The notes beneath the pieces were generated by a model. That model had not been told where the DNA came from, ran no database searches, and worked only from the letters and a program-made list of their open reading frames with translations. From positions 4,136,501 to 4,200,500 of the forward strand of contig NZ_AP021861.1 of NCBI RefSeq assembly GCF_009177095.1: 64,000 bases of DNA, in the 5' to 3' direction. Of the stretch, positions 4,862-59,275 are shown one piece after another (position 1 is the first letter of the stretch; each line of letters begins with the position of its first letter). The position numbers and the translations under genes were made by a program. The stretch is from Lacipirellula parvula (GTDB lineage: Bacteria > Planctomycetota > Planctomycetia > Pirellulales > Lacipirellulaceae).

Positions 4862-7105
4862 ATGGGTCTTTTTCACCCGCACCAGTTCTCAGGAAAATTG
4901 ACGAGCCGCCTATTGGCGGTCGTCGCCCTTGCCGCAGTCGTTGGCTGCAATCCCCCGCCGCGCGTCGAGGAATCGAAGGCAGCCGCCGACGAAGCCGCGA
5001 CGCCTGCCGAAGGCGAAAAGGCCGCCGAGGCAACTCCCGCGGCGACCACCACCGACGCCCCGGCCGATCAGGGCGCCTCAGCGAAGGAGCAAAAGTTGAT
5101 CCCCCGCAGCGTGTTGTTTGGCAATCCGCAGAAGGCCTCCGCTCGCATTAGCCCGAACGGCCAGTGGATGAGCTACCTCGCCCCCGTCGACGGCATTCTC
5201 AATGTCTTCGTCGCCCCGATCGACGATATGTCGGCCGCCAAGCAAGTGACCGACGACAAGACCCGCGACATCCGCGGCTACAGCTGGGCCTACACCGGCG
5301 AACACATCCTCTACACGCAAGACAAGGGCGGCGACGAAGATTGGCATCTGTACGCCACCGACGTTGCCACCGGCAAAACGACCGACCTCACGCCGCTCGA
5401 CAACATCCACGCCACGATCGAAGGCGTGAGCGAGAAGTTCCCCGATGAAATCCTCGTCGGCCTGAACGATCGCAACCCGCAGCTCCACGACATCTACCGC
5501 GTCAACCTGAAGACCGGCGATCGCAAACTGATCCAAGAAAACCCTGGCTACGCCGCGTTCATTACCGACGACGACTACAACGTTCGCTTCGCCTTTACCT
5601 ACACGGCCGACGGCGGCAACGAAGTCCTCGAACCGGCCGAGGGCGACGCCGGCAAGCCGGGCGACAAGGGCATCACCGACTGGGTCACCTTCATGAAGGT
5701 CGGCCCCGAAGACGCGATGTCGACCTCGCCCGCCGGCTTCAACAAGGACGGCACGGTGCTCTACCTGCTCGATAGCCGCGATCGCAACACGAGCGCCCTC
5801 TTCTCGATCGATCTCAAGACCGACGAGAAGAAGCTGATTGCCGAGAACCCCAAGGCCGACATCGGCGAGGTGCTGGTCCACCCGACTGAAAAGACGATCC
5901 AAGCGGTCGCCTTCACCTACGAGAAGACCGAGTGGGACATCCTCGACGAGTCGATCAAGAAAGATCTCGACTACCTGAAGACGGTCGAAGACGGCGAAGT
6001 GATCGTCACCAGCCGCACGCTCGACGATAAGCAATGGACCGTCGCGTTCATGCTCGACGACGGGCCGGTGAAGTTCTATCGCTACGATCGCGGCGAGGGG
6101 AAGGCCCACTTCCTCTTCAACAGCCGCGACGATCTCGAAGGCTACCCGCTCGTGAAGATGCACCCGGTGCTGATTCCAACGCGCGACGGCAAAGAGCTCG
6201 TTTCGTACCTCACGCTGCCGGCCGGCAGCGACCCTGACGGCGACGGCGTACCGAACACGCCGGTGCCGCTGGTGCTGAACGTCCACGGCGGCCCGTGGGC
6301 CCGCGATGCGTGGGGCTTTGATCCCGAGCATCAATGGCTCGCCGATCGTGGCTACGCCGTGCTCGCCGTGAATTACCGCGGTTCGACCGGCTTCGGCAAG
6401 TCATTCGTCAACGCGGCGAACGGCGAATGGGCCGGCAAGATGCACGACGACCTGATCGACGCCGTCAACTGGGCCGTCAAGAAGGGGATCGCTCAAAAGG
6501 ACAAGGTCGCCATCATGGGCGGCAGCTACGGTGGTTACGCAACCCTGGTTGGTCTGACGTACACCCCCGACGTCTTCGCCGCCGGCGTCGACATCGTCGG
6601 CCCGTCGAGCCTCGTGACGCTGTTAGAAAACGTGCCGCCCTACTGGGCCTCGTTCATGCCCGTCATGAAGATCCGCGTCGGCGACGTCGACACGGAAGAA
6701 GGCAAGGCGGAGTTGCTCAAGCGGTCGCCGATGACGAAGGTCGACCAAATCAAGAAGCCGCTCCTCATCGGCCAAGGCGCCAACGACCCGCGGGTCACGC
6801 AGCTCGAGGCCGATCAAATCGTCAAATCGATGGAAGACAAGAAAATTCCGGTCACCTACGTCCTCTATCCCGACGAGGGCCACGGCTTCGCCCGCGAGCC
6901 GAACCGCAAGTCGTTCAACGCCGTCACCGAAGCGTTCCTCGCGGAACACCTCGGCGGCAAGTATGAGCCGGTTGGCAAAGATTTTGAAGGGGCGTCGATC
7001 CACGTCCCGAGCGGAGCGGCCCAAGTGCCGGGGCTCGATAAGGAGCTAAAGGCCGATCGGAAGCAAATGCCGCCGAAGCCAGAGGCGAAGGAAACTGAGA
7101 AGTAG
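4862..7105 (+). CDS. S9 family (prolyl oligopeptidase-like) secreted peptidase
   Basis: A 747-residue serine peptidase. An N-terminal beta-propeller (about 80-410) precedes an alpha/beta hydrolase domain. Catalytic Ser is about residue 555 in GGSYGGYA, Asp about 642 in GANDPRV and His about 674 in EGHGF. The N-terminus looks like a lipoprotein signal ending AAVVGC, followed by an Ala/Glu-rich linker, so the enzyme is probably anchored and periplasmic or external. The frame opens at 4793, but the ATG at 4862 gives the signal peptide directly. An odd short insert, SDPDGDGVPNTPVP, just before the hydrolase domain resembles a calcium-binding acidic loop. It is transcribed divergently from comEC and ends before an inverted repeat and a strong terminator. 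Confidence 0.9.
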   Translation: MGLFHPHQFSGKLTSRLLAVVALAAVVGCNPPPRVEESKAAADEAATPAEGEKAAEATPAATTTDAPADQGASAKEQKLIPRSVLFGNPQKASARISPNGQWMSYLAPVDGILNVFVAPIDDMSAAKQVTDDKTRDIRGYSWAYTGEHILYTQDKGGDEDWHLYATDVATGKTTDLTPLDNIHATIEGVSEKFPDEILVGLNDRNPQLHDIYRVNLKTGDRKLIQENPGYAAFITDDDYNVRFAFTYTADGGNEVLEPAEGDAGKPGDKGITDWVTFMKVGPEDAMSTSPAGFNKDGTVLYLLDSRDRNTSALFSIDLKTDEKKLIAENPKADIGEVLVHPTEKTIQAVAFTYEKTEWDILDESIKKDLDYLKTVEDGEVIVTSRTLDDKQWTVAFMLDDGPVKFYRYDRGEGKAHFLFNSRDDLEGYPLVKMHPVLIPTRDGKELVSYLTLPAGSDPDGDGVPNTPVPLVLNVHGGPWARDAWGFDPEHQWLADRGYAVLAVNYRGSTGFGKSFVNAANGEWAGKMHDDLIDAVNWAVKKGIAQKDKVAIMGGSYGGYATLVGLTYTPDVFAAGVDIVGPSSLVTLLENVPPYWASFMPVMKIRVGDVDTEEGKAELLKRSPMTKVDQIKKPLLIGQGANDPRVTQLEADQIVKSMEDKKIPVTYVLYPDEGHGFAREPNRKSFNAVTEAFLAEHLGGKYEPVGKDFEGASIHVPSGAAQVPGLDKELKADRKQMPPKPEAKETEK

Positions 7106-7116
7106 AGTCGCGTCCG

Positions 7117-7195
7117 AAGGGGTCGGGGGCCTTTGGCCACTGGCGACTCGCTTCTGAATTGACGACTACCAGTGGCAAAAGGCCCCCGACCCCGT
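7117..7195. repeat. Intergenic inverted repeat, family I, copy 1
   Basis: Left arm GGGGTCGGGGGCCTTTGGCC and right arm GGCAAAAGGCCCCCGACCCC flank about 35 unrelated bases. A second copy lies at 39403-39483. It sits directly after the peptidase stop. Confidence 0.75.
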
Positions 7196-7214
7196 CAATC
7201 TCACCATCCCGCAG

Positions 7215-7250
7215 CGGCCCTCTCGAACCTTTCGAGAGGGCCGTTTTTTT
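7215..7250 (+). terminator. Intrinsic terminator of the S9 peptidase gene
   Basis: A 13-bp perfect stem (7215-7227 with 7231-7243), a 3-nt loop, then seven T. The same hairpin with about 20 bases of shared upstream sequence recurs at 8293-8326. Confidence 0.92.
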
Positions 7251-7451
7251 GTTACCACGTGAGTCTTTGGCGCTGCGCATTGCGGAACGCTCTTTGGAAT
7301 CGACACACGTGCGCAACGCGCCTACTTCTCGATTCAAAAGACGTTAACAGCAAATATGATCGCATTTAACGCGAAGCGTCGCTCTTGCCTCGCAGGCGTC
7401 ACAGACTTAAGCACGCGTGAACACTCTGCCAATTCATCCCGCAGGCGCCGA

Positions 7452-8252
7452 ATGAACGACAATGAAGCAGCCTGGTGGTCGGCCACTCGCGCCAAGGGCC
7501 AAAAACGCTACGTCATCTCGCGTAGCGTGCTGTTCTGCGGAGTCGCCATGGTTTTGGTAGCCGTCATGGACTTCCTCGGCTGGCAGCAACAACCGTCCGA
7601 TTGGATTTGGTACCTCATTGGCTTTCTAGTCGGCGGCTATCTATTTAGCGTTTGGACGTGGAAAGGCTCAGAGCAGCAGTATCGCGCATGGCAGACGAGT
7701 CGCCTGCCAACGCCGACCTCCGCTCCTACGAAGCCTGCCGCCAGCGTTCGCCAGCCCACGACTCAATCCGGCAGCCCCGCAACGATTCCCCCGAGCGTAA
7801 CCGACTTATTGCAGACTCCCTCGGAAGCACACGTTGCGGCGTTACTTGATGACGACGACGCCATCTTCCTCGTCGACTGGCGTGAAGAAGACGACGTCAT
7901 TATCGAGTACTGCGAATCGATCCTCCGCACCGGCTCTCTCTCGGCCGCGATTATCGACGTCGACGCCGATCCCGGATTTGAACTCTACATCGAGTATTCG
8001 GGCAAACGGTCGAAAGTACCGCTTGTCGTCGGGCACGAAGATCGCCACATCACTCTCTATTCGCTCAATCAAGCCCTTGCTCCCGACTACGAGATCCGCG
8101 TCTGCGTCGACTCGCAAGGCAGCGACACGCTGGCATTTTTGCCGCTCCGCTCCGCACATTGGTCTACGCTCGAACAGACCTACGGTCGGCTGGTGGATAA
8201 GCATTTCCGCAAGATTACGCAGCAACCCAATCTCTTCACGGATCGGTGGTGA
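7452..8252 (+). CDS. Hypothetical membrane protein
   Basis: Family not recognised. From the ATG at 7452 it is 266 residues. A short charged N-terminus is followed by two closely spaced hydrophobic segments (VLFCGVAMVLVAVMDFLGW and WIWYLIGFLVGGYLFSVWTW), which would form a hairpin in the membrane. A Pro/Thr/Ser-rich linker leads to an acidic soluble C-terminal domain of about 150 residues beginning DLLQTPSEAHVAALL. The frame is open from 7356, but the upstream 32 residues are basic and unlike a protein start. It is a single gene between two copies of the same terminator. Confidence 0.6.
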   Translation: MNDNEAAWWSATRAKGQKRYVISRSVLFCGVAMVLVAVMDFLGWQQQPSDWIWYLIGFLVGGYLFSVWTWKGSEQQYRAWQTSRLPTPTSAPTKPAASVRQPTTQSGSPATIPPSVTDLLQTPSEAHVAALLDDDDAIFLVDWREEDDVIIEYCESILRTGSLSAAIIDVDADPGFELYIEYSGKRSKVPLVVGHEDRHITLYSLNQALAPDYEIRVCVDSQGSDTLAFLPLRSAHWSTLEQTYGRLVDKHFRKITQQPNLFTDRW

Positions 8253-8292
8253 TCGCCGAAGGCTCGCAACCCCGTCAATCTCACCACCACCG

Positions 8293-8326
8293 CGGCCCTC
8301 TCGAACCTTTCGAGAGGGCCGTTTTT
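8293..8326 (+). terminator. Intrinsic terminator, duplicate of 7215-7250
   Basis: The 13-bp stem (8293-8305 with 8309-8321) and CCT loop match the upstream terminator, followed by five T. The preceding CCCCGTCAATCTCACCA is also shared, so this is a duplicated block, not independent origin. Confidence 0.9.
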
Positions 8327-8965
8327 CGTTGGCGGCCGCCACCCCAAGTGGCCGAAAATAGGGGTTCGGCAGCCAAGCGAATCGCCGCTAAAATGAAGAG
8401 AACCGGCTAGAGAAAGAGCCCGTTGCTCCCAGCGGTAAACGGCTCAGCGTCAACCGCAAGGCGGTCCCGAAGGGACCTCGCGACAATAGCCCAGCACTTC
8501 CAGTGCTGGGAACAGGCGACGCAACAGAATCGCTAGCCCCAGCGGGGCGACTGATGAGTTGACCGAAACGGACCGTGTCGCCTGAGACATACAAACCACG
8601 CGACACGACACCACTTAAAACGTTACCCACAAACAACTAACGATTAATGTCGCCAAAAACGCGAAACGCGACACAAAGCGACAGCAGCTCGGCCGCCAGG
8701 CCGCCGCAGCCAACCAAAATTCGTCCCAACTCCCCGCTACAGGTGCGGTTGCGTTCCCCGCAAGCATCTGTACATTAGTGGGGATCGTTACCAGTTTTTA
8801 TCACAGTGTCTTGTTGTAGGAAGAGTTGTAGCAGTCTCGCCAGCATGAGTTTTGTGCTCGCGTCGCCGGAGGCGTCGCGAGAGGGGTCGCCTCCCGTCAC
8901 CGGGGCAGCTGCGACCAACTCGGCCCAGGCCAGCGCTAGAGCGACAGAACACGCGGAAAGAACAG
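8327..8965. other. Long gene-free leader of rpsO with small palindromes
   Basis: No convincing protein gene. The stretch holds short inverted repeats (AGCACTTCCAGTGCT near 8491, a GGTCCCGAAGGGACC hairpin near 8463) and TGTCGC-type motifs at 8645-8690 resembling those at 45470-45592. The rpsO promoter and any S15 autoregulatory leader should lie in the last 200 bases. Confidence 0.5.
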
Positions 8966-9235
8966 ATGTCAGTCACGAAAGAACGCAAGAGCGAGTTGAT
9001 CCAGGATTTTGGCCGTACGGGAAGCGACACCGGGTCGCCGGAGGTCCAGATTTCGATCCTGACCACCCGCATTGCGGAAATGACGACCCATCTGCAGCTT
9101 CACAAGAAAGACTTCGCCAGCCGTCGCGGCTTGCTCGGCATGGTCAGCCGGCGTCGTCGTCTGCTCGATTACGTGAAGCGGACCAATCCGCAAAAGTATC
9201 TCGATCTGTTGCAGCGTCTGGATATCCGCAAGTAA
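8966..9235 (+). CDS. rpsO: 30S ribosomal protein S15
   Basis: An 89-residue S15, the usual length, that binds the central domain of 16S rRNA. It begins MSVTKERKSELIQDFGR and has the conserved TGSPEVQ and LLGMVSRRRRLLDY segments. The frame is open upstream, but the ATG at 8966 is preceded by GGAAAG and matches the family start. pnp follows after 292 bases, the classical rpsO-pnp order. That spacer holds no recognised gene and may contain the pnp leader hairpin. Confidence 0.97.
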   Translation: MSVTKERKSELIQDFGRTGSDTGSPEVQISILTTRIAEMTTHLQLHKKDFASRRGLLGMVSRRRRLLDYVKRTNPQKYLDLLQRLDIRK

Positions 9236-9527
9236 CGCCTTCGCCGAACCAGTGAGCATCGCCCCCGGCAAGCTCGCCGGTCGGCCTCGCGAACTTCTCT
9301 GCGAACGCTCCCGCTGCGGGGGGCGCCGAGTCGGTACGTCGCCAACTTTGCGTGGCGCCGCGTCCCCTGCCGTCTTCATTCGGCCGCGCCGCTCATCATC
9401 GCGCTCAAGGCGCGGGTATGCTTGCGTGTTCGCGTCTCGCCCGCCGGCTGCCTGAGATTCTCAGGCCCTCGACGGGACACGGCGCTTCTGCGAACGACTC
9501 GCAACGACAAAAGTAGGAACCAAGAAA

Positions 9528-11645
9528 TTGAAGCGTATCAAAGTTGAAAAGCAAATCGGTCAGTACACCTTCTCGATCGAAACGGGCGCCCTCGCCAAGC
9601 AAGCCGCCGGCGCCGTCACCGTTCAATATGGGGACACCGTCGTCCTCGTCGCCGCCGCGACCGACAAGCCTCGTCCCGGCATCGACTTCTTCCCGCTGAC
9701 CTGCGACTACCGCGAGCGCGTCGCCGCCGCCGGTAAGTTCCCGGGCGGGTTCATCAAGCGTGAAGGTCGCCCCACGACCAAAGAAACCCTCACCGCCCGG
9801 TTGATGGATCGCCCGATCCGTCCGCTGTTCCCGGAAGGGTTCAACGACGAAGTTCAGATTCAAGCCTTCGTGATGTCGAGCGACCGTCAAACCGACGGCG
9901 ACGTTCTCGCGATGAACGGCGCCGCCGCGGCCCTCGGCATTTCCGAACTGCCGTTCGAAGGCCCGCTCGGCTCGGTCCGCCTCGGCCAGATCGACGGCAA
10001 GTTCGTGCCGTTCCCGACGCAAGATGAACTTGAGGCGAGCACGCTCGACCTGATCATCTCCGGCACCAAAGACGCCGTGCTGATGATCGAAGGCTTCGGC
10101 CGTGAATTGCCCGAAGAAGAGATGACCCAGGCGATCCTCGTCGCCCACGGGTACGTCAAAGAACTCTGCGACTTGCAGCAAGAGCTGATCGACAAGATCG
10201 GCAAGCCGAAGAAGGCCTTCAGCCTGCCGGCGAACGACGGCTGCTACGACGCCCTGAAGAACGCCTTCTACGACCAAGCCCGCAAGGCGAAGCAAACGCC
10301 CGGCAAGCATGATCGCGCCGACGCGATGAAGGTCGTCAAGGAACAAGCCAAGGCCGCCCTTATTCCCGACGCTTCCGCCGAAGGCGCCTACAGCGACGCC
10401 TCGTTCTCGAAGGCTTGGCACGACCTCGAAGCGAAGATCGTCCGCGATCTGATCCTCGACGGCACCCGCGCCGACGGCCGCGATTACAAGACGCTGCGCG
10501 CCATCGAGTGCGAAGTCGATCTGCTCCCCCGCGTTCATGGTTCGGCCATGTTCCAACGCGGCGAAACGCAGGCCCTGATCACGATCACGCTCGGCACCGG
10601 CCGCGACGAGCAACGGGTCGACGGCCTGTTCGACGAGTTCTCGAAGCGGTTCATGCTCGACTACAACTTCCCGTCGTTCTCGGTCGGCGAATGCCGCCCG
10701 ATTCGCGGCCCGGGTCGTCGTGAAATCGGCCACGGCGCCCTCGCCGAGCGGAGCGTCAATCCGATTCTCCCCGACCACGACGCGTTCCCCTACACGATCC
10801 GCGTGATCTCCGACATCCTCGAGTCGAACGGCTCGAGCTCGATGGCTTCGGTCTGCGGCGCCACCCTCGGCCTGATGGCTGCGGGCGTCCCGATCACGAA
10901 CCCGGTCGCCGGCATCTCGGTCGGCTTGGTGAAGGACGGAGACAAGTGGGTCCTCCTCACCGACATCATCGGCGACGAAGATCACTACGGCGATATGGAC
11001 TTCAAGATTGCCGGCACGCAAAACGGCATTACGGGCATCCAGCTCGACCTGAAGATCAACGGCATCAGCGAAGAAATCATCCGCGCCACGCTCGCCCAGT
11101 CGCGCGAGGCTCGGATTGAAATCCTCCGCAGCATGCTTTCAGCGATCCCGCGGCCTCGCGCCGGCGTCGCCGAGTCGGCCCCGCGTCTGTTCCGCACGCA
11201 GATCAACCCCGACAAGATCGGTCTGCTCATCGGTCCGGGCGGCAAGACGATCCGCGGCATTCAGGAAGACACGGGCGTCACGATCGACGTCGAAGAAGAC
11301 GGCACCGTCACGATTGCCGGCGGCGACGAAGCCTCGGCCAAGGCTGGTCTCGCCCGCGTTGAAGCCCTCACCGCGAGCGTCCAAGTCGGCCGCATTTACG
11401 ACGGCGTCGTCACCAGCGTTAAGGACTTCGGCGCCTTCGTCGAAATCCTGCCGGGCCGCGACGGCCTCTGCCACATCAGCGAACTGGCCGACGGTTACGT
11501 CGCGTCAGTCGGCGACGTTTGCAAGGTCGGCGATCACATGAAGGTGAAGGTGATCGCGGTCGACGAGCAAGACCGCGTCAAGCTGAGCCGCAAGGTCGCC
11601 ATGCGTGAGCTGGCCGAGTCGGAAACCGAGACCGTCGAAGCCTAA
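9528..11645 (+). CDS. pnp: Polyribonucleotide nucleotidyltransferase (PNPase)
   Basis: A 705-residue phosphorolytic 3'-5' exoribonuclease of mRNA decay. Two RNase PH domains (about 1-220 and 310-550) are separated by an all-helical domain. A KH domain (IGLLIGPGGKTIRGIQEDTG, about 565-580) and a C-terminal S1 domain (GRIYDGVVTSVKDFGAFVE, about 622) follow. The start is TTG at 9528, with AGGA nine bases upstream. No nearer ATG gives the conserved IKVEKQIGQ N-terminus. Use of TTG in a highly conserved gene may lower translation. Confidence 0.97.
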   Translation: MKRIKVEKQIGQYTFSIETGALAKQAAGAVTVQYGDTVVLVAAATDKPRPGIDFFPLTCDYRERVAAAGKFPGGFIKREGRPTTKETLTARLMDRPIRPLFPEGFNDEVQIQAFVMSSDRQTDGDVLAMNGAAAALGISELPFEGPLGSVRLGQIDGKFVPFPTQDELEASTLDLIISGTKDAVLMIEGFGRELPEEEMTQAILVAHGYVKELCDLQQELIDKIGKPKKAFSLPANDGCYDALKNAFYDQARKAKQTPGKHDRADAMKVVKEQAKAALIPDASAEGAYSDASFSKAWHDLEAKIVRDLILDGTRADGRDYKTLRAIECEVDLLPRVHGSAMFQRGETQALITITLGTGRDEQRVDGLFDEFSKRFMLDYNFPSFSVGECRPIRGPGRREIGHGALAERSVNPILPDHDAFPYTIRVISDILESNGSSSMASVCGATLGLMAAGVPITNPVAGISVGLVKDGDKWVLLTDIIGDEDHYGDMDFKIAGTQNGITGIQLDLKINGISEEIIRATLAQSREARIEILRSMLSAIPRPRAGVAESAPRLFRTQINPDKIGLLIGPGGKTIRGIQEDTGVTIDVEEDGTVTIAGGDEASAKAGLARVEALTASVQVGRIYDGVVTSVKDFGAFVEILPGRDGLCHISELADGYVASVGDVCKVGDHMKVKVIAVDEQDRVKLSRKVAMRELAESETETVEA

Positions 11646-54326: not shown

Positions 54327-55100
54327 TTACTCAGGTTCGCCGTACACTGAATTGTCAGGCGAGAGGAAACCGGTGCCGGTGGCGATTTGCTTGGCTCCTT
54401 GGTAGTCGTCTGTTTCTGTAAAACGTTCAGCGCGGACTTCGGCGTGGCCGTCGCAGAAGGCGACGCAGGTCGTGTCGAGATGCCGGTAGCCTTGCGTGCC
54501 GGCGTAGCGGCCGTTGAAGGTGTCGTCGCCTTCGCTGTCGAAGGGCGCCCGCATGAATTTGTTGGCGCCGGCGGCGTACTGGCCGTCGCCGAAGATGGCG
54601 GTGCGGGTTGGGGCTTGAATCGACTTTTGCGTCGCGGGCTCGAGAATGTTCTCGCTTTCGCCGTGACCGATGTAGCTCGTGTTGTAGTTGTAGCCGGTGT
54701 AGGGATCGATGGCCCAATTCGCGGCGCCGTCGAACGACGGGCACTGCTGAATCTCCAGCGGCCCGGCGTCCTCCCACAGAATGCCGGGGACGACATACGC
54801 CGCGGCGGCGGGCGGCTTGATCGTGGTGAGGTCCCAACAGTAGGAGTAGTGGACGCCGTCGCGCTGCGCCGTGTAGTAGGCGATCGGATATCGCCCCGCG
54901 TGGCGGTCGGCGTGCATGTGGGCGGCGAGGGCCATTTGGCGGAGATTGCTCAGGCACTGCGTCCGCCGCGCGGCCTCGCGGGAGTTGCTCACCGCGGGGA
55001 GGAGCAGGCCGAGGAGGATCGCGATGATAGCGATGACGACGAGGAGTTCGACGAGGGTGAATGCCGGGCGGGCGGCGGGGTGAGTTCGGCGGTAGTTCAT
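54327..55100 (-). CDS. DUF1559 (type II secretion pseudopilin-like) protein
   Basis: 257 residues from the ATG at 55100. The N-terminus is a prepilin-type cleavage signal ([19 protein letters not shown]). The C-terminal part carries the H-x9-DG motif ([12 protein letters not shown]). DUF1559 proteins are numerous in planctomycetes and are likely pseudopilin-like. The prepilin peptidase at 18.5 kb could process it. Last gene of the run below the cobalamin riboswitch. Confidence 0.88.
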
Positions 55101-55157
55101 GGATTGAGTTACCGACGAGGTTTGCGGCGCCGATTCGCACCAACCAATCAAATGTGT

Positions 55158-55256
55158 GGTTCCCTCCCCTTGAGGGGGAGGGTTAGGGAGGGGTGATTGA
55201 TGCGGGCACCAGCTTCAGCCCCCCTCCCCAGCCCTCCCTCCAGGGGGAGGGGGCAA
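55158..55256. repeat. Intergenic inverted repeat, family B, copy 2
   Basis: TTCCCTCCCCTTGAGGGGGA and TCCCTCCAGGGGGAGGGGGC arms, between the DUF1559 gene and the 529-residue protein gene. Confidence 0.8.
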
Positions 55257-55263
55257 GAAGGAG

Positions 55264-56853
55264 TTATTTGTGTGAGAGCCGAAACTTGCGGCGTGAGCAT
55301 GCGACGATGCCTAGCACCGCAAGCGTGACGGCGCTCGGCTCTGGAACTTGCACAACCGCCTGGCTCGCGGCGCCGCTCGCTCCAAAATGCTGCTTCCACA
55401 CATTCAGGTCCTCGGCATCGACAATCCCCGGCGAGGCGGTTTCGTTGGGGAGCGGCATGCTCCCGCCGTAGGCGCGTTGCCAGGCGAGGAAATCGGCGCC
55501 GTCGACGAGGCCGTTGTCGTCGTAGTCGCCGGGCAGGGGCGCGGCGGCGGTTTGGACGATCGCGAGCCACGCTTCGCCGGCGGTCCAATCTTCGAGAAGC
55601 GCCATGCCGGCGGTCGCGTCAAAGGTGAACGACGTTTCGCTCCAAGCATCATCGCTCCACGACAATATCTGCAGATCGCTGCCGTCGCCGGCGTAGTCGC
55701 TGCTCACGCCGAGGCGGTAGTCGGCGGCGAACGCGACCGGCGCGTCGCCGACGAGAGTGGTTACTTCGAGTGCAAAGTTGGTGAGCACGTTCTTGCCGGC
55801 GAGCGCGGCGAGGGCCGTTTCATCGGCAAGCGGAGCGGTGGTCAGCTTGGCCAAGTCGGCGACGGCGGAGAAATCAGCGATCACCGCCGACTTCGCAAGG
55901 TCCGCGCCCTGCTGAAAGAAGAGCCTCGTCCCTGCGTCGACGTTATCCGGGGTGATCGACAGCGAATCGCCGAGCGTCATCGGCCGCACGTCGGCAAAGC
56001 CGTCAATCTCGCCATCGCGGAACTGGGCGGTCGCCTCGACGCGCACGTACTGAATCGACGAGAAGCCGGTGGGGGCGAGGTCGATCCCCGTGCCGCCGCC
56101 GGAGTTGAGATACATGCCGATCGCGTTGGCCGCTGAAAGTTGCTGGCCCTGAACGCCGAGCACCGCGTCGAGCGTCGGGTTCACCGGCTTCGTAAAATCG
56201 GTTGGCGTCGAGGTCCAGCCGTTGCCGGTGGCGTCGTGCTGCGCGCCGCTCCACTGCGTTCCCTGCGTCGGAAACGCGGTGTCGCCGTACGGACCGTTCG
56301 CATAGGTGTACCAATTGACGTTGTCGGGGCTCACCGAGATGACGACCGGCTCGGCGAACAGGCCGCCGACCAGGTTGTACGCCCGCATGTCGCTTGAATC
56401 GCTGACAAAGCCGTTGCCGACGTAAAACGAGTTGCCGAAGACGTTCAGATCGATGCCGTACGGGTTAGTCGGATCATCGACGATCGGCTGATCGAATTTA
56501 ACGGTAATGAAACCGTAGTCGTAGCCGCCGCCGTTCGACTTGCGGCTGAGCGTCGTGATGATTTTGTTGCCGGCGAGATCGCGGTTGTACGCGGGCTCGA
56601 CGATTTTGATGTGATAAGGCGCCGTGCCAATGACGGGGTCGTTGTTGTTGGCAACGCGGGTTGGCTCGCCAAGGACAGCGAGCGGATCGTTGTAGAGGGC
56701 CGCGCCGCCGAAGGCGCCATTGTGGGCGACGAGCGTCGTGGCGTAGGGACTTTGGGCGGCCGCGGTCGAAGCAAGCGCGGCCGCCAGAGTCAGTGCGAGG
56801 AAGAACCGCCCTGCCGGCAATCGCCGGCAAGACGGGGTCGTAGAAACTTGCAT
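55264..56853 (-). CDS. Secreted PEP-CTERM surface protein with dockerin-like repeat
   Basis: 529 residues. A signal peptide ending LASTAAAQ, then a beta-rich domain with TTLVAHNGAFGGAALYND, VKFDQPIVDDP, LNVFGNSFYVGNGF and VVISVSPDNVNWYTY. This pattern resembles cell-surface proteins found in B12-regulated loci of Bacteroidetes; that link is from memory and not confirmed here. A dockerin-like pair (DYDDNGLVDGADF and GIVDAEDLNVW, about 450-495) precedes a PEP-CTERM signal VPEPSAVTLAVLGIVACSRR. Sits below the 599-residue gene on the same strand. Confidence 0.78.
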   Translation of the reverse strand: MQVSTTPSCRRLPAGRFFLALTLAAALASTAAAQSPYATTLVAHNGAFGGAALYNDPLAVLGEPTRVANNNDPVIGTAPYHIKIVEPAYNRDLAGNKIITTLSRKSNGGGYDYGFITVKFDQPIVDDPTNPYGIDLNVFGNSFYVGNGFVSDSSDMRAYNLVGGLFAEPVVISVSPDNVNWYTYANGPYGDTAFPTQGTQWSGAQHDATGNGWTSTPTDFTKPVNPTLDAVLGVQGQQLSAANAIGMYLNSGGGTGIDLAPTGFSSIQYVRVEATAQFRDGEIDGFADVRPMTLGDSLSITPDNVDAGTRLFFQQGADLAKSAVIADFSAVADLAKLTTAPLADETALAALAGKNVLTNFALEVTTLVGDAPVAFAADYRLGVSSDYAGDGSDLQILSWSDDAWSETSFTFDATAGMALLEDWTAGEAWLAIVQTAAAPLPGDYDDNGLVDGADFLAWQRAYGGSMPLPNETASPGIVDAEDLNVWKQHFGASGAASQAVVQVPEPSAVTLAVLGIVACSRRKFRLSHK

Positions 56854-56932
56854 GGGACTTCCTTGATTGGTTTTGTCCGTGGTCAGTCGTCCGTTGTCAG
56901 TTGCTGAGGAAATGCCGCAGCTGGATTGAAAT

Positions 56933-57018
56933 TGTGGGAGGCGTCTCCGACGCCGATTTCGCGCACCACGCCGAAGCGTTCCAGCCGCGCCGCATCGGCG
57001 TCGGAGACGCCTCCCACA
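56933..57018. repeat. Intergenic palindromic element, family A, copy 4
   Basis: TGTGGGAGGCGTCTCCGACG and CGTCGGAGACGCCTCCCACA; the most perfectly symmetric copy (both arms identical type). Preceded by a half copy of family E (56877-56907). Confidence 0.85.
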
Positions 57019-57027
57019 GAATTGTCG

Positions 57028-58827
57028 CTACTTGCGTCGGCGAATGGTGAACATCGCCAAGGCGACGGAGGCGGCGAGCGCGAACGCGGCTGGCTCGGGG
57101 ACTTGGGCGGGCGTCGGCACGGCCGGCGTTCCGCTGTCGCCGGTTGTGAAATCGACGTAGCTCCAGCCATCCCACGAACCGTTGGTCAGTTCGCGACCCG
57201 AGAAGCCAAGGCCCGAATAGCCCCACGCCGGGGCGGAGGGGTCGGAGATCCAGTAGCTCCAGTAACCGGTGAACCAACCTTCGCGGTAGTAGTCGTCGCT
57301 GTCGGTCGCGGCGCCCGTCTCGACGCCTTCGAAACTCGAAACGAACGAGCCGCCGTCGCCGTCGACGTCGTAGCCGATGCCGAAGGTCGAGTTGCCGAGG
57401 CCGCCGCCGAAGGAACTCGCCCGCAGGTAGAGGCGACTATCGCTCCCTGAGTACGTGCCCAACTCTGAGCCGCCGTCGCGTTCACGCACGAGGGTCGTGC
57501 CGGCGATCGCGCGAAACATCTGCTCGCCTGTCGCCGTGCCGTCCCATTGGTAGCCCCAGACGTAGCTCGCATTGCCCGTGGGGTAATAGAAGTCGACGAC
57601 CAGCGCTGCGCGGTTGCTGCCCGTGCCGACCCAGTAGTCGACGTCGCTGAAATCGAACGCGTCGTAAGGGGAGGCCTCGACCGCCATCGGGGCAGCCGTC
57701 AGCACCAACAGGGCGATCGCCAAGCAACGCGACCGGCGACGCATCAGCAAACCAAAGGTCCCGGCCGCGGCCACGAGTAGCAGTGTCGCGGGCTCCGGCA
57801 CGGCGTAGGCAGTTACCGCACCGTTCTGGTAGTAGCCGAGAAGCAACTCGCCGGTGCCGGCGTTGTAATTCCACGTCGGCGGTTGGAGCGAATCGAGCGT
57901 CTCCTGCGGGCTGGCGATCTTACGCAGCACGCTTGCCGGCGAGTTCCCATTGATCGGCGGCGCGGCTTGCGGATTGGCCAATGCGTCGGCGACGGCGCTC
58001 GCGCTGATCAGTGCTGCGTAGCCTTTGTCGTTCGAACCGCCGAAGAAATCGGCGCCGCCGACGAACATGTTGCCCGAGCCATCGAAACCGAAGGGGTAGG
58101 CCGAGAGCAAGTCAGCGACCGGCGTGCCGGTGGCTTCGAAGTTGAGCGGGGTGTTCGTCGCGAGGGCGTTTTGCCAATCGCCGGCGGCGAAGGCTTTGAT
58201 CCACCCGGTCGAACTGCCGCCCGTGTTGTAACCATAGCCGTTGCCGGTGTAGAGGTTGCCGGCCGCGTCGATCGCAACGCCGGCCGAGGCGCCGCCGATG
58301 TTGGTAATCACCGGGGTCATCGTGGCGGTTTGCGTGTCGAGGATCTCGACCCGCGGGCCCGACATGCCATTGGCGATGGCGAGGTAGCGGTTGTCGATCC
58401 ACTCGCCAGCGAAGTCATCGCCGTTGAAAATGGTGACGCTCGCGGGATTAGCGGTTTCGAAGACGGCAATCGTACCGCCCGCGTTGCTGCCGGCTGCGGC
58501 GCGGGTTCCATCAGGCGACACGGCGAGGAAGCCGGGGCCCCAGGACATCAACGAAAAGCCGGGGATGTCGCCGAGCGCGTTGAAGGCGCCGCTCTTGGGA
58601 GCCGTCTCGACGGAGACGTTCACGCCATTGAGCAACAGGAGCCGGCCGTCGGGAAGGGCGTCGAACAGGACGTTGCCGCCCGAACTGTCGCCGCCGGCGG
58701 GGAGGGTGAAGTTGCGCGTCGGCTGGTAGGCGTCGATGCCGACGGCCTTCGCTTGCGGAGCGGCGTAGCTCGCCGCGAGCGTGAGGGCGCATGCGAGCGC
58801 CGCACTGAATCGTAGAAGTCTCGTCAT
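57028..58827 (-). CDS. Cobalamin-riboswitch-controlled double PEP-CTERM protein
   Basis: 599 residues that look like two exosortase substrates in one frame. Half 1: signal peptide (ALTLAASYAAPQAKA), propeller-like domain with repeated GxFLAVSPDGTRA-type turns, VPEP at 343-346, a helix to about 361, then RRRSR. Half 2 begins at Met 362 (ATG at 57744): CLAIALLVLTAAPMAVEA reads as a second signal peptide, then a domain with YWVGTGSNRAALVVDFY and YDVDGDGGSFVSSFEG, and a second VPEPAAFALAASVALAMF plus RRRK. No good Shine-Dalgarno precedes the internal ATG. A lost stop or a true polyprotein are both possible. Confidence 0.82.
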   Translation of the reverse strand: MTRLLRFSAALACALTLAASYAAPQAKAVGIDAYQPTRNFTLPAGGDSSGGNVLFDALPDGRLLLLNGVNVSVETAPKSGAFNALGDIPGFSLMSWGPGFLAVSPDGTRAAAGSNAGGTIAVFETANPASVTIFNGDDFAGEWIDNRYLAIANGMSGPRVEILDTQTATMTPVITNIGGASAGVAIDAAGNLYTGNGYGYNTGGSSTGWIKAFAAGDWQNALATNTPLNFEATGTPVADLLSAYPFGFDGSGNMFVGGADFFGGSNDKGYAALISASAVADALANPQAAPPINGNSPASVLRKIASPQETLDSLQPPTWNYNAGTGELLLGYYQNGAVTAYAVPEPATLLLVAAAGTFGLLMRRRSRCLAIALLVLTAAPMAVEASPYDAFDFSDVDYWVGTGSNRAALVVDFYYPTGNASYVWGYQWDGTATGEQMFRAIAGTTLVRERDGGSELGTYSGSDSRLYLRASSFGGGLGNSTFGIGYDVDGDGGSFVSSFEGVETGAATDSDDYYREGWFTGYWSYWISDPSAPAWGYSGLGFSGRELTNGSWDGWSYVDFTTGDSGTPAVPTPAQVPEPAAFALAASVALAMFTIRRRK

Positions 58828-58828
58828 T

Positions 58829-58843
58829 AGCTGAATTCCAGCT
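58829..58843 (-). promoter_or_regulatory. Hairpin immediately before the start codon
   Basis: AGCTG and CAGCT (58829-58833 with 58839-58843) enclose the only GGA near the start at 58827, so it may help hide the ribosome site. Short stem, tentative. Confidence 0.35.
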
Positions 58844-59061
58844 GCGGCTGTGATCGCCGCATGGCCTAATCGCGAGGCCGAGGTGGGCAGGAGCCTGCGC
58901 GGGAAGTTCGCTCACGACGAACAGCCAGAAGGGCAAGAACTGGCGAAACGACGTCGACCATCGCCCGCACACAGCGGCACGATGCGACAACAGCGAGTGA
59001 AGCCAGGTCCGGCCCGTCCTAAACGCGAAGACGGAAAACGGGCGCCCGACGCCGTAGCGTC

Positions 59062-59275
59062 GAACGTTTGCTCCCAGGCCGGTCTTCTGGCTTCAGACAT
59101 CTCGGCCGATCGCCTTCCCATTTCGACAGCAGTCGAAACAGTGGCTTGTTGATCGGCCAATCAAACGTCCATCACAGCGGCGCGTCCGCGTCGGATTCTC
59201 ACCGACTTCCCTTCGCGGCGACTGGGGAGTCGCCACGGGCTTTCGCCGCCCGAGAGCAGTGGGACAAGATAGCTG
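59062..59275 (-). promoter_or_regulatory. Cobalamin (B12) riboswitch
   Basis: On the minus strand the order of conserved blocks is GGGAAGTCGGTGAGAATCCG, then CGCGGACGCGCCGCTGTGA, then GCCACTGTTTCGACTG, then AATGGGAAGGC and a 3' CCAGAAGACCGGCCTGGG. These are the B12-box and P1/P3-P6 signatures. It lies about 235 nt above the ATG at 58827, same strand. Expected to repress translation or transcription when adenosylcobalamin is bound. Confidence 0.92.

Follow-up and report, generated by a model that had tools for sequence, protein, structure and literature searches.

A cobalamin riboswitch heads a putative corrinoid-scavenging locus with exosortase-type tails and a pseudopilin in Lacipirellula parvula

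The planctomycete Lacipirellula parvula carries a cobalamin (B12) riboswitch above three genes, all on the minus strand, whose products we consider here as candidates for corrinoid capture at the cell surface. In order, these code for a protein with a beta-propeller and two PEP-CTERM tails (gene 1), a protein with a domain of the B12-binding BtuH type (gene 2) and a pseudopilin of the DUF1559 family (gene 3); all coordinates follow the numbering of the 64-kb stretch analysed (the window; contig NZ_AP021861.1, positions 4,136,501 to 4,200,500) and are collected in Table 1. The covariance model RF00174 matches over its entire length (model 1-189), scoring 81.6 bits where its gathering threshold is 31.5 (E 1.6e-18); no other Rfam match in the window reaches such a threshold, and the riboswitch was recovered again in the genome scans, which bears out the first-pass annotation of a B12 riboswitch at 59062-59275 on the minus strand. 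The same annotation had seen no BtuB or cobalamin-biosynthesis gene in the run, and by Pfam none of the three genes is of that kind.

Table 1. Features of the riboswitch-headed locus, in window coordinates
Feature	Position	Strand	Basis
Cobalamin riboswitch aptamer	59060..59268	(-)	RF00174 covariance match
Leader, aptamer to gene 1 (232 nt)	58828..59059	(-)	sequence; plain RNA fold
Gene 1: beta-propeller and PEP-CTERM, then signal-peptide-like stretch, domB and second PEP-CTERM, in one frame	57028..58827	(-)	Pfam, profile, predicted fold
domB region of gene 1, without Pfam family	57163..57690	(-)	alignments and Pfam scan
Gene 2: BtuH-type domain (residues about 25-300) and weak PEP-CTERM-like end	55264..56853	(-)	hhalign, predicted fold, Asn141
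Gene 3: DUF1559-type pseudopilin	54327..55100	(-)	PF07596 and PF07963 above cut-off

The domain of gene 2 is of the BtuH type by homology and predicted fold. It is linked by hhalign (98.8%) to a bridging BtuH homologue (L065), which itself reaches the BtuH structures of the PDB by phmmer at 6e-12 and 1e-14, and its predicted fold matches 8BLW (the H-domain of BtuG1) and 7BIZ (BtuH2). The asparagine that contacts the B12 phosphate (Asn399 type) is present in every row of both alignments (38 of 38 in A8, 32 of 32 in A12), the window protein included (Asn141, a correspondence deduced from alignments through L065); other B12 contacts of BtuH are Tyr510, Trp511, Trp577 and His476. We take the gene 2 product for a probable corrinoid-binding protein. 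Its PEP-CTERM stretch scores 15.2 bits, below the cut-off, and Pfam finds no dockerin family in it at E<=1, such that both the tail and the dockerin repeats of the first-pass annotation are poorly supported for this gene; dockerin is reported in 20 of the 38 members of the gene 2 alignment.

In gene 1, the two PEP-CTERM stretches that had been noted from the outset score 37.8 bits against a Pfam cut-off of 20.7. As the first tail is immediately followed by RRRSR and a hydrophobic stretch resembling a second signal peptide, gene 1 looks like two exported proteins run together, namely the propeller and a second domain (domB); a simple motif search among the loci collected found no other double-tail frame of its kind. 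The propeller is recovered by profile search, with the archaeal surface-layer propeller 1L0Q as the best sequence match (E 9e-13), and by a fold predicted from a trimmed alignment, for which the model quality is only fair. A plain single-sequence query returned no match in the PDB, and transcobalamin is absent among the 50 matches listed for gene 1, a list filled by propellers. Three loci (L086, L088 and L092) have a relative of this propeller between the riboswitch and gene 2, and another (L082) has one after gene 2. We regard domB as a riboswitch-linked domain and a candidate for ligand binding. A Pfam scan of 16 domB proteins (E<=10) gave DUF6689 in three (best E 0.0027) and Trp_DMAT in one (E 0.0013); of the profile searches against the PDB, one was without match and another returned tyrosyl-tRNA synthetases at E 0.013. 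DUF4430, a transcobalamin C-terminal-like family suspected from a sequence pattern, is absent in the same scan and was rejected as the identity of domB; it occurs once, at E 0.01, among 38 gene-2-type proteins. Elsewhere, a 748-residue protein below a B12 riboswitch (L132:5304-7550) shows by eye three tandem domB-like stretches, as if for several ligands, and in other planctomycetes (L166, L185, L192, L206 and L207) a secreted propeller, a candidate BtuG-like catcher, seems to be the first gene below a B12 riboswitch; the propeller of L192, when checked, matched 1L0Q (E 1.5e-14).

Gene 3, whose likely start is the ATG at 55100 rather than 55151, matches PF07596 (DUF1559; 38.1 bits) and the N_methyl family PF07963 (26 bits), both above their cut-offs, in agreement with its initial description as a DUF1559 pseudopilin-like protein.

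Across a phylum sample of 149 genomes, 127 of which have RF00174, a two-row profile of domB matched 8 loci, spread over 6 genomes, and one of the gene 2 domain matched 9, spread over 8; these figures include the window genome. A same-strand riboswitch lies above all eight domB loci and eight of the nine gene-2 loci; the ninth gene-2 match ends 41 bases away from the edge of its contig. G142 and G077 have the riboswitch, domB, gene 2 and the pseudopilin in this order, and G111 has the same parts at the ends of two contigs. When the GTDB genome collection was scanned with the gene 2 alignment, 337 relatives were obtained, the best 80 of which were used; their labels include Planctomycetota, Verrucomicrobia, Lentisphaerae and Kiritimatiellae, and most are metagenome bins. 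By position, 66 of the 80 have a riboswitch no more than 4 kb upstream on their own strand, and 65 are left after a check of the letters (53 passed a loose motif and 12 of 13 inspected by eye were accepted, L085 being unsupported), against a chance expectation of 0.09. Of these loci, 20 have domB on the strand of gene 2; in L078-L080, L093, L107 and L110, it forms a fusion with the gene 2 domain. In 60 of the 77 loci that could be evaluated (three are cut off), the gene immediately after gene 2 matches the pseudopilin profile, whereas of 565 other genes of the same loci 9 are followed by such a match, a fair comparison because the profile includes the general prepilin start; within 3.5 kb on the same strand, such a match is found in 70 of the 80. 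The succession of gene 2 and pseudopilin is also seen in loci labelled Verrucomicrobia, Lentisphaerae and Kiritimatiellae, and the sequence distances of the two proteins correlate over 31 loci (r 0.62, reached in 0 of 2000 permutations), a correlation that shared host ancestry alone also gives.

The window genome (G000; 6.92 Mb, single contig, 96% complete) has three RF00174 matches. The second (L004, G000:C1:721500-741000; riboswitch at 9765-9988) lies above a gene pair (5567-9571) that we take, from its sequence, to be nrdA and nrdB of the class I, B12-independent ribonucleotide reductase; a riboswitch above an nrdA/nrdB-like pair, a B12-sparing design, is also seen in G105 (L165). The third (L005) heads genes for a pseudopilin, a protein with domB and a protein resembling that of gene 2, with domB 44% and gene 2 39% identical to those of the window and the pseudopilins alike mainly at the N-terminus; by eye, its neighbourhood resembles that of L106, in a bin labelled Pirellulales. 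In a rough tree of gene 2, for which the bootstrap was not settled and in which L105 and L106 are long rows, the window copy stands apart from this second copy of its own genome and groups with the Verrucomicrobia of L078-L080 (58% identity, 4 rows, support 100/95), which hints at a transfer of the cassette between phyla. A search with PF00593 for TonB-dependent receptors gave no match in G000, whereas the same search found them in 108 of the 149 genomes. CbiC was not found in G000 either, so that the organism probably must import B12. PF01032 (FecCD-type), searched for a BtuC-type permease, has one match that passes the cut-off (31 against 26.5 bits) and a second that does not, which we read from their sequences as a Zn/Mn-type metal permease and a sugar-type ABC permease, respectively. 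One exosortase was found in the genome (190 bits), alongside the PEP-CTERM motif of gene 1 above its cut-off and the tail of gene 2 below it.

Taken together, we consider it likely that this locus is a B12-repressed corrinoid-scavenging operon, a reading built on the riboswitch, the gene order, homology, predicted fold and recurrence. Surface capture of corrinoids, one of two roles that the first-pass annotation had proposed, gains support from the BtuH homology and fold of gene 2 and from the riboswitch linkage of relatives whose search took no account of riboswitches. At low intracellular cobalamin, the riboswitch would permit expression of the three genes, which would share one transcript repressed by cobalamin. 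Gene 1 would then yield the propeller and domB, probably as two surface proteins that exosortase and signal peptidase would cleave out of a single precursor, while gene 2 would supply the BtuH-type B12-binding protein; all three would catch corrinoids at the cell surface, anchored there by exosortase tails. The pseudopilin would be a dedicated partner that either helps place the catchers or forms a pseudopilus moving bound corrinoid across the outer membrane, the latter route being proposed because no TonB-dependent receptor was found in the genome. A bolder extension, which we consider rather unlikely, is a TonB-independent import of the vitamin in planctomycetes and perhaps in further bacteria that have no TonB-dependent receptors. 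In it, exosortase-anchored catchers would hand the corrinoid to a dedicated fibre of pseudopilin, which by retracting or turning over would bring it into the periplasm, in the manner of competence pili. Such a fibre-based route is conceivable because Boedeker et al. 2017 (PMC5394234, available sections) report pili-like planctomycete fibres that bind dextran and macromolecules that are taken up, by unclear means, into the periplasm.

Several observations weigh against this corrinoid-scavenging reading. The genes are separated by gaps (174 nt between genes 1 and 2, 163 nt between genes 2 and 3). The gene 2 profile alone reaches 7BIZ only weakly (E 0.15), and at the position of Gln333, another B12 contact of BtuH, the bridging protein has Asp. 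Many propellers of unrelated proteins match that of gene 1, with BtuG absent among the matches listed; its two relatives elsewhere in the 149 genomes (G128:C293, 42% identity, and the weak G146:C214) are on contigs without RF00174 among the matches listed. For domB, the Pfam scan and PDB profile searches identified neither fold nor ligand. Lastly, the riboswitch is undetected in 15 of the 80 loci, nine of which are in genomes without an RF00174 match.

An unrelated pseudopilin, with only genes 1 and 2 acting in B12 capture, is quite unlikely. DUF1559 proteins are indeed so numerous in planctomycetes that any gene might have one as its neighbour, and they form the largest paralogue group (68 members) of Planctopirus limnophila in the excerpts available from PMC10632474; gene 3 is set off from gene 2 by the gap given above, and 10 of the 80 loci have no pseudopilin-profile match within 3.5 kb (in L105, one lies just beyond this limit). 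Against this stand the excess of pseudopilins directly after gene 2 over background, the persistence of that order in loci labelled with three other groups, the correlated distances, with the said reservation on ancestry, and a family (f3) in which a prepilin-type gene is often the first below the riboswitch (see below). It is also unlikely that the proteins bind B12 for purposes other than uptake, as decoys or stores, shed or fixed in the matrix, that keep it from competitors. Exosortase tails, along with the dockerin of relatives, would fit a matrix or surface placement, an importer is absent among the three genes, and vesicle-borne B12 binders are described for B. theta in the part of PMC12751083 available; however, the apparent need for import in the absence of CbiC and the riboswitch above the presumed nrdA/nrdB pair, which fits intracellular B12 use, speak against it. 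The other role proposed at first, B12-sparing exoproteins made at the surface when B12 is scarce and without corrinoid binding, is very improbable: the presumed nrdA/nrdB pair is of the sparing kind, but the BtuH homology, fold and contact residue of gene 2 contradict such a role, and we rejected it on the homology.

The corrinoid-scavenging operon that we favour resembles BtuH of Bacteroides thetaiotaomicron in the predicted fold and phosphate-contact Asn of gene 2, the B12 riboswitch above and the export of the protein, and differs from that system in its exosortase-type tails, its pseudopilin partner and the lack of a TonB receptor found in the genome. With BtuG, the seven-bladed B12-capturing propeller, and the BtuGH fusion, it shares multidomain architecture and an exported propeller in a riboswitch-headed run with a BtuH-type protein; however, no specific similarity to BtuG was found, and the window propeller bears PEP-CTERM tails and is joined to domB instead of BtuH. 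Gene 3 is a member of the DUF1559 family of type IV pilus/type II secretion pseudopilins and departs from these in its place in a B12-riboswitch-headed run. The BtuJ/DUF4465 proteins have counterparts in the PEP-CTERM proteins of DUF4465 type below B12 riboswitches in related planctomycetes, whereas PF14717 is not reported by Pfam for genes 1-3 at E<=1. We take the entry IPR013424 to be that of PEP-CTERM. It is present in 88 of 824 DUF4465 family members in a published survey (PMC12751083, in part), and B12 binding is demonstrated for eight BtuJ/DUF4465 members in the available portion of PMC13398666.

The capture principle is known, and what is new is its version with exosortase tails and a pseudopilin partner, in a genome in which no TonB receptor was found; we found no description of this arrangement in the literature searched, outside of which most subscription papers fell. 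Hence, the initial remark that such riboswitch use is not well described holds for this version and fails for surface B12-binding lipoproteins, which are published under B12 riboswitches for Bacteroides (PMC8941943, PMC10404256, PMC12751083 and PMC6143338, each in part). The findings also place domains of the BtuH type far outside the gut Bacteroidetes and the three Firmicutes named in the accessible text of PMC8941943. Pseudopilus import of B12, if true, would be a new kind of uptake. B12 is about twice the size that porins admit, and its crossing of the outer membrane therefore needs a dedicated route. The porin limit is put at about 600 Da in the sections available of PMC5394234, the outer-membrane transporter described in the papers cited here is BtuB with TonB, and about 10% of B12-importing bacteria lacked BtuFCD homologues in an older survey (PMC2667541, in part). 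A riboswitch-marked pseudopilin module would explain corrinoid feeding in bacteria without TonB receptors, give a DUF1559 protein a substrate and connect to the fibre-associated uptake reported for planctomycetes (PMC5394234).

The TonB counts are from PF00593, as a single-query BtuB search misses receptors (e.g., in G126) and its TonB column was left unused. PF00593 is found in one of the ten genomes recovered by the narrow profiles and in 107 of the 139 others (Fisher p 3.6e-5, the genomes not being independent). Since, in addition, 32 other genomes are without TonB receptors and a broader profile finds BtuH-type genes below riboswitches in the TonB-positive G127, G057 and G045, we do not rest the case on this anticorrelation. 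Among the matches listed, we examined the regions below 41 riboswitches of TonB-less and 41 of TonB-positive genomes, where many first genes are unnamed. In f3, the six sampled members of which have no PF00593 match, ten riboswitches among those listed lie above a prepilin-type gene (six), a DUF4465-type PEP-CTERM gene (three, two confirmed by Pfam) or an nrdA-like gene (one). In G121, of the same order as the window genome, one riboswitch lies above a TonB receptor and one above what is presumably metE.

Below the B12 riboswitches of L068, L070 and L071 stand PEP-CTERM proteins of DUF4465 type (by Pfam in L068 and L070), and a prepilin-type gene diverges from the intergenic region in question. 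After the B12 riboswitch of L069 and L074 come a pseudopilin of DUF1559 type, a small lipoprotein-like gene, an ATPase of PF01902 type and a membrane protein with DUF6580 (by Pfam in L069), possibly an operon for corrinoid salvage that includes a candidate for the inner-membrane transporter.

Within the window run, a plain RNA fold of the leader, run without a control, gave no clear expression platform. Promoter-like sites (one, inside gene 2, against 0.8 expected) and terminator-like sites (six against 4.4 expected on both strands, one just inside gene 2) are at chance level. An inverted repeat (GTGGGAGGCGTCTCCGACGCC with its complement; 56935-57020) is seen by eye between genes 1 and 2, and pieces of it seem to recur in other intergenic stretches of the same genome.
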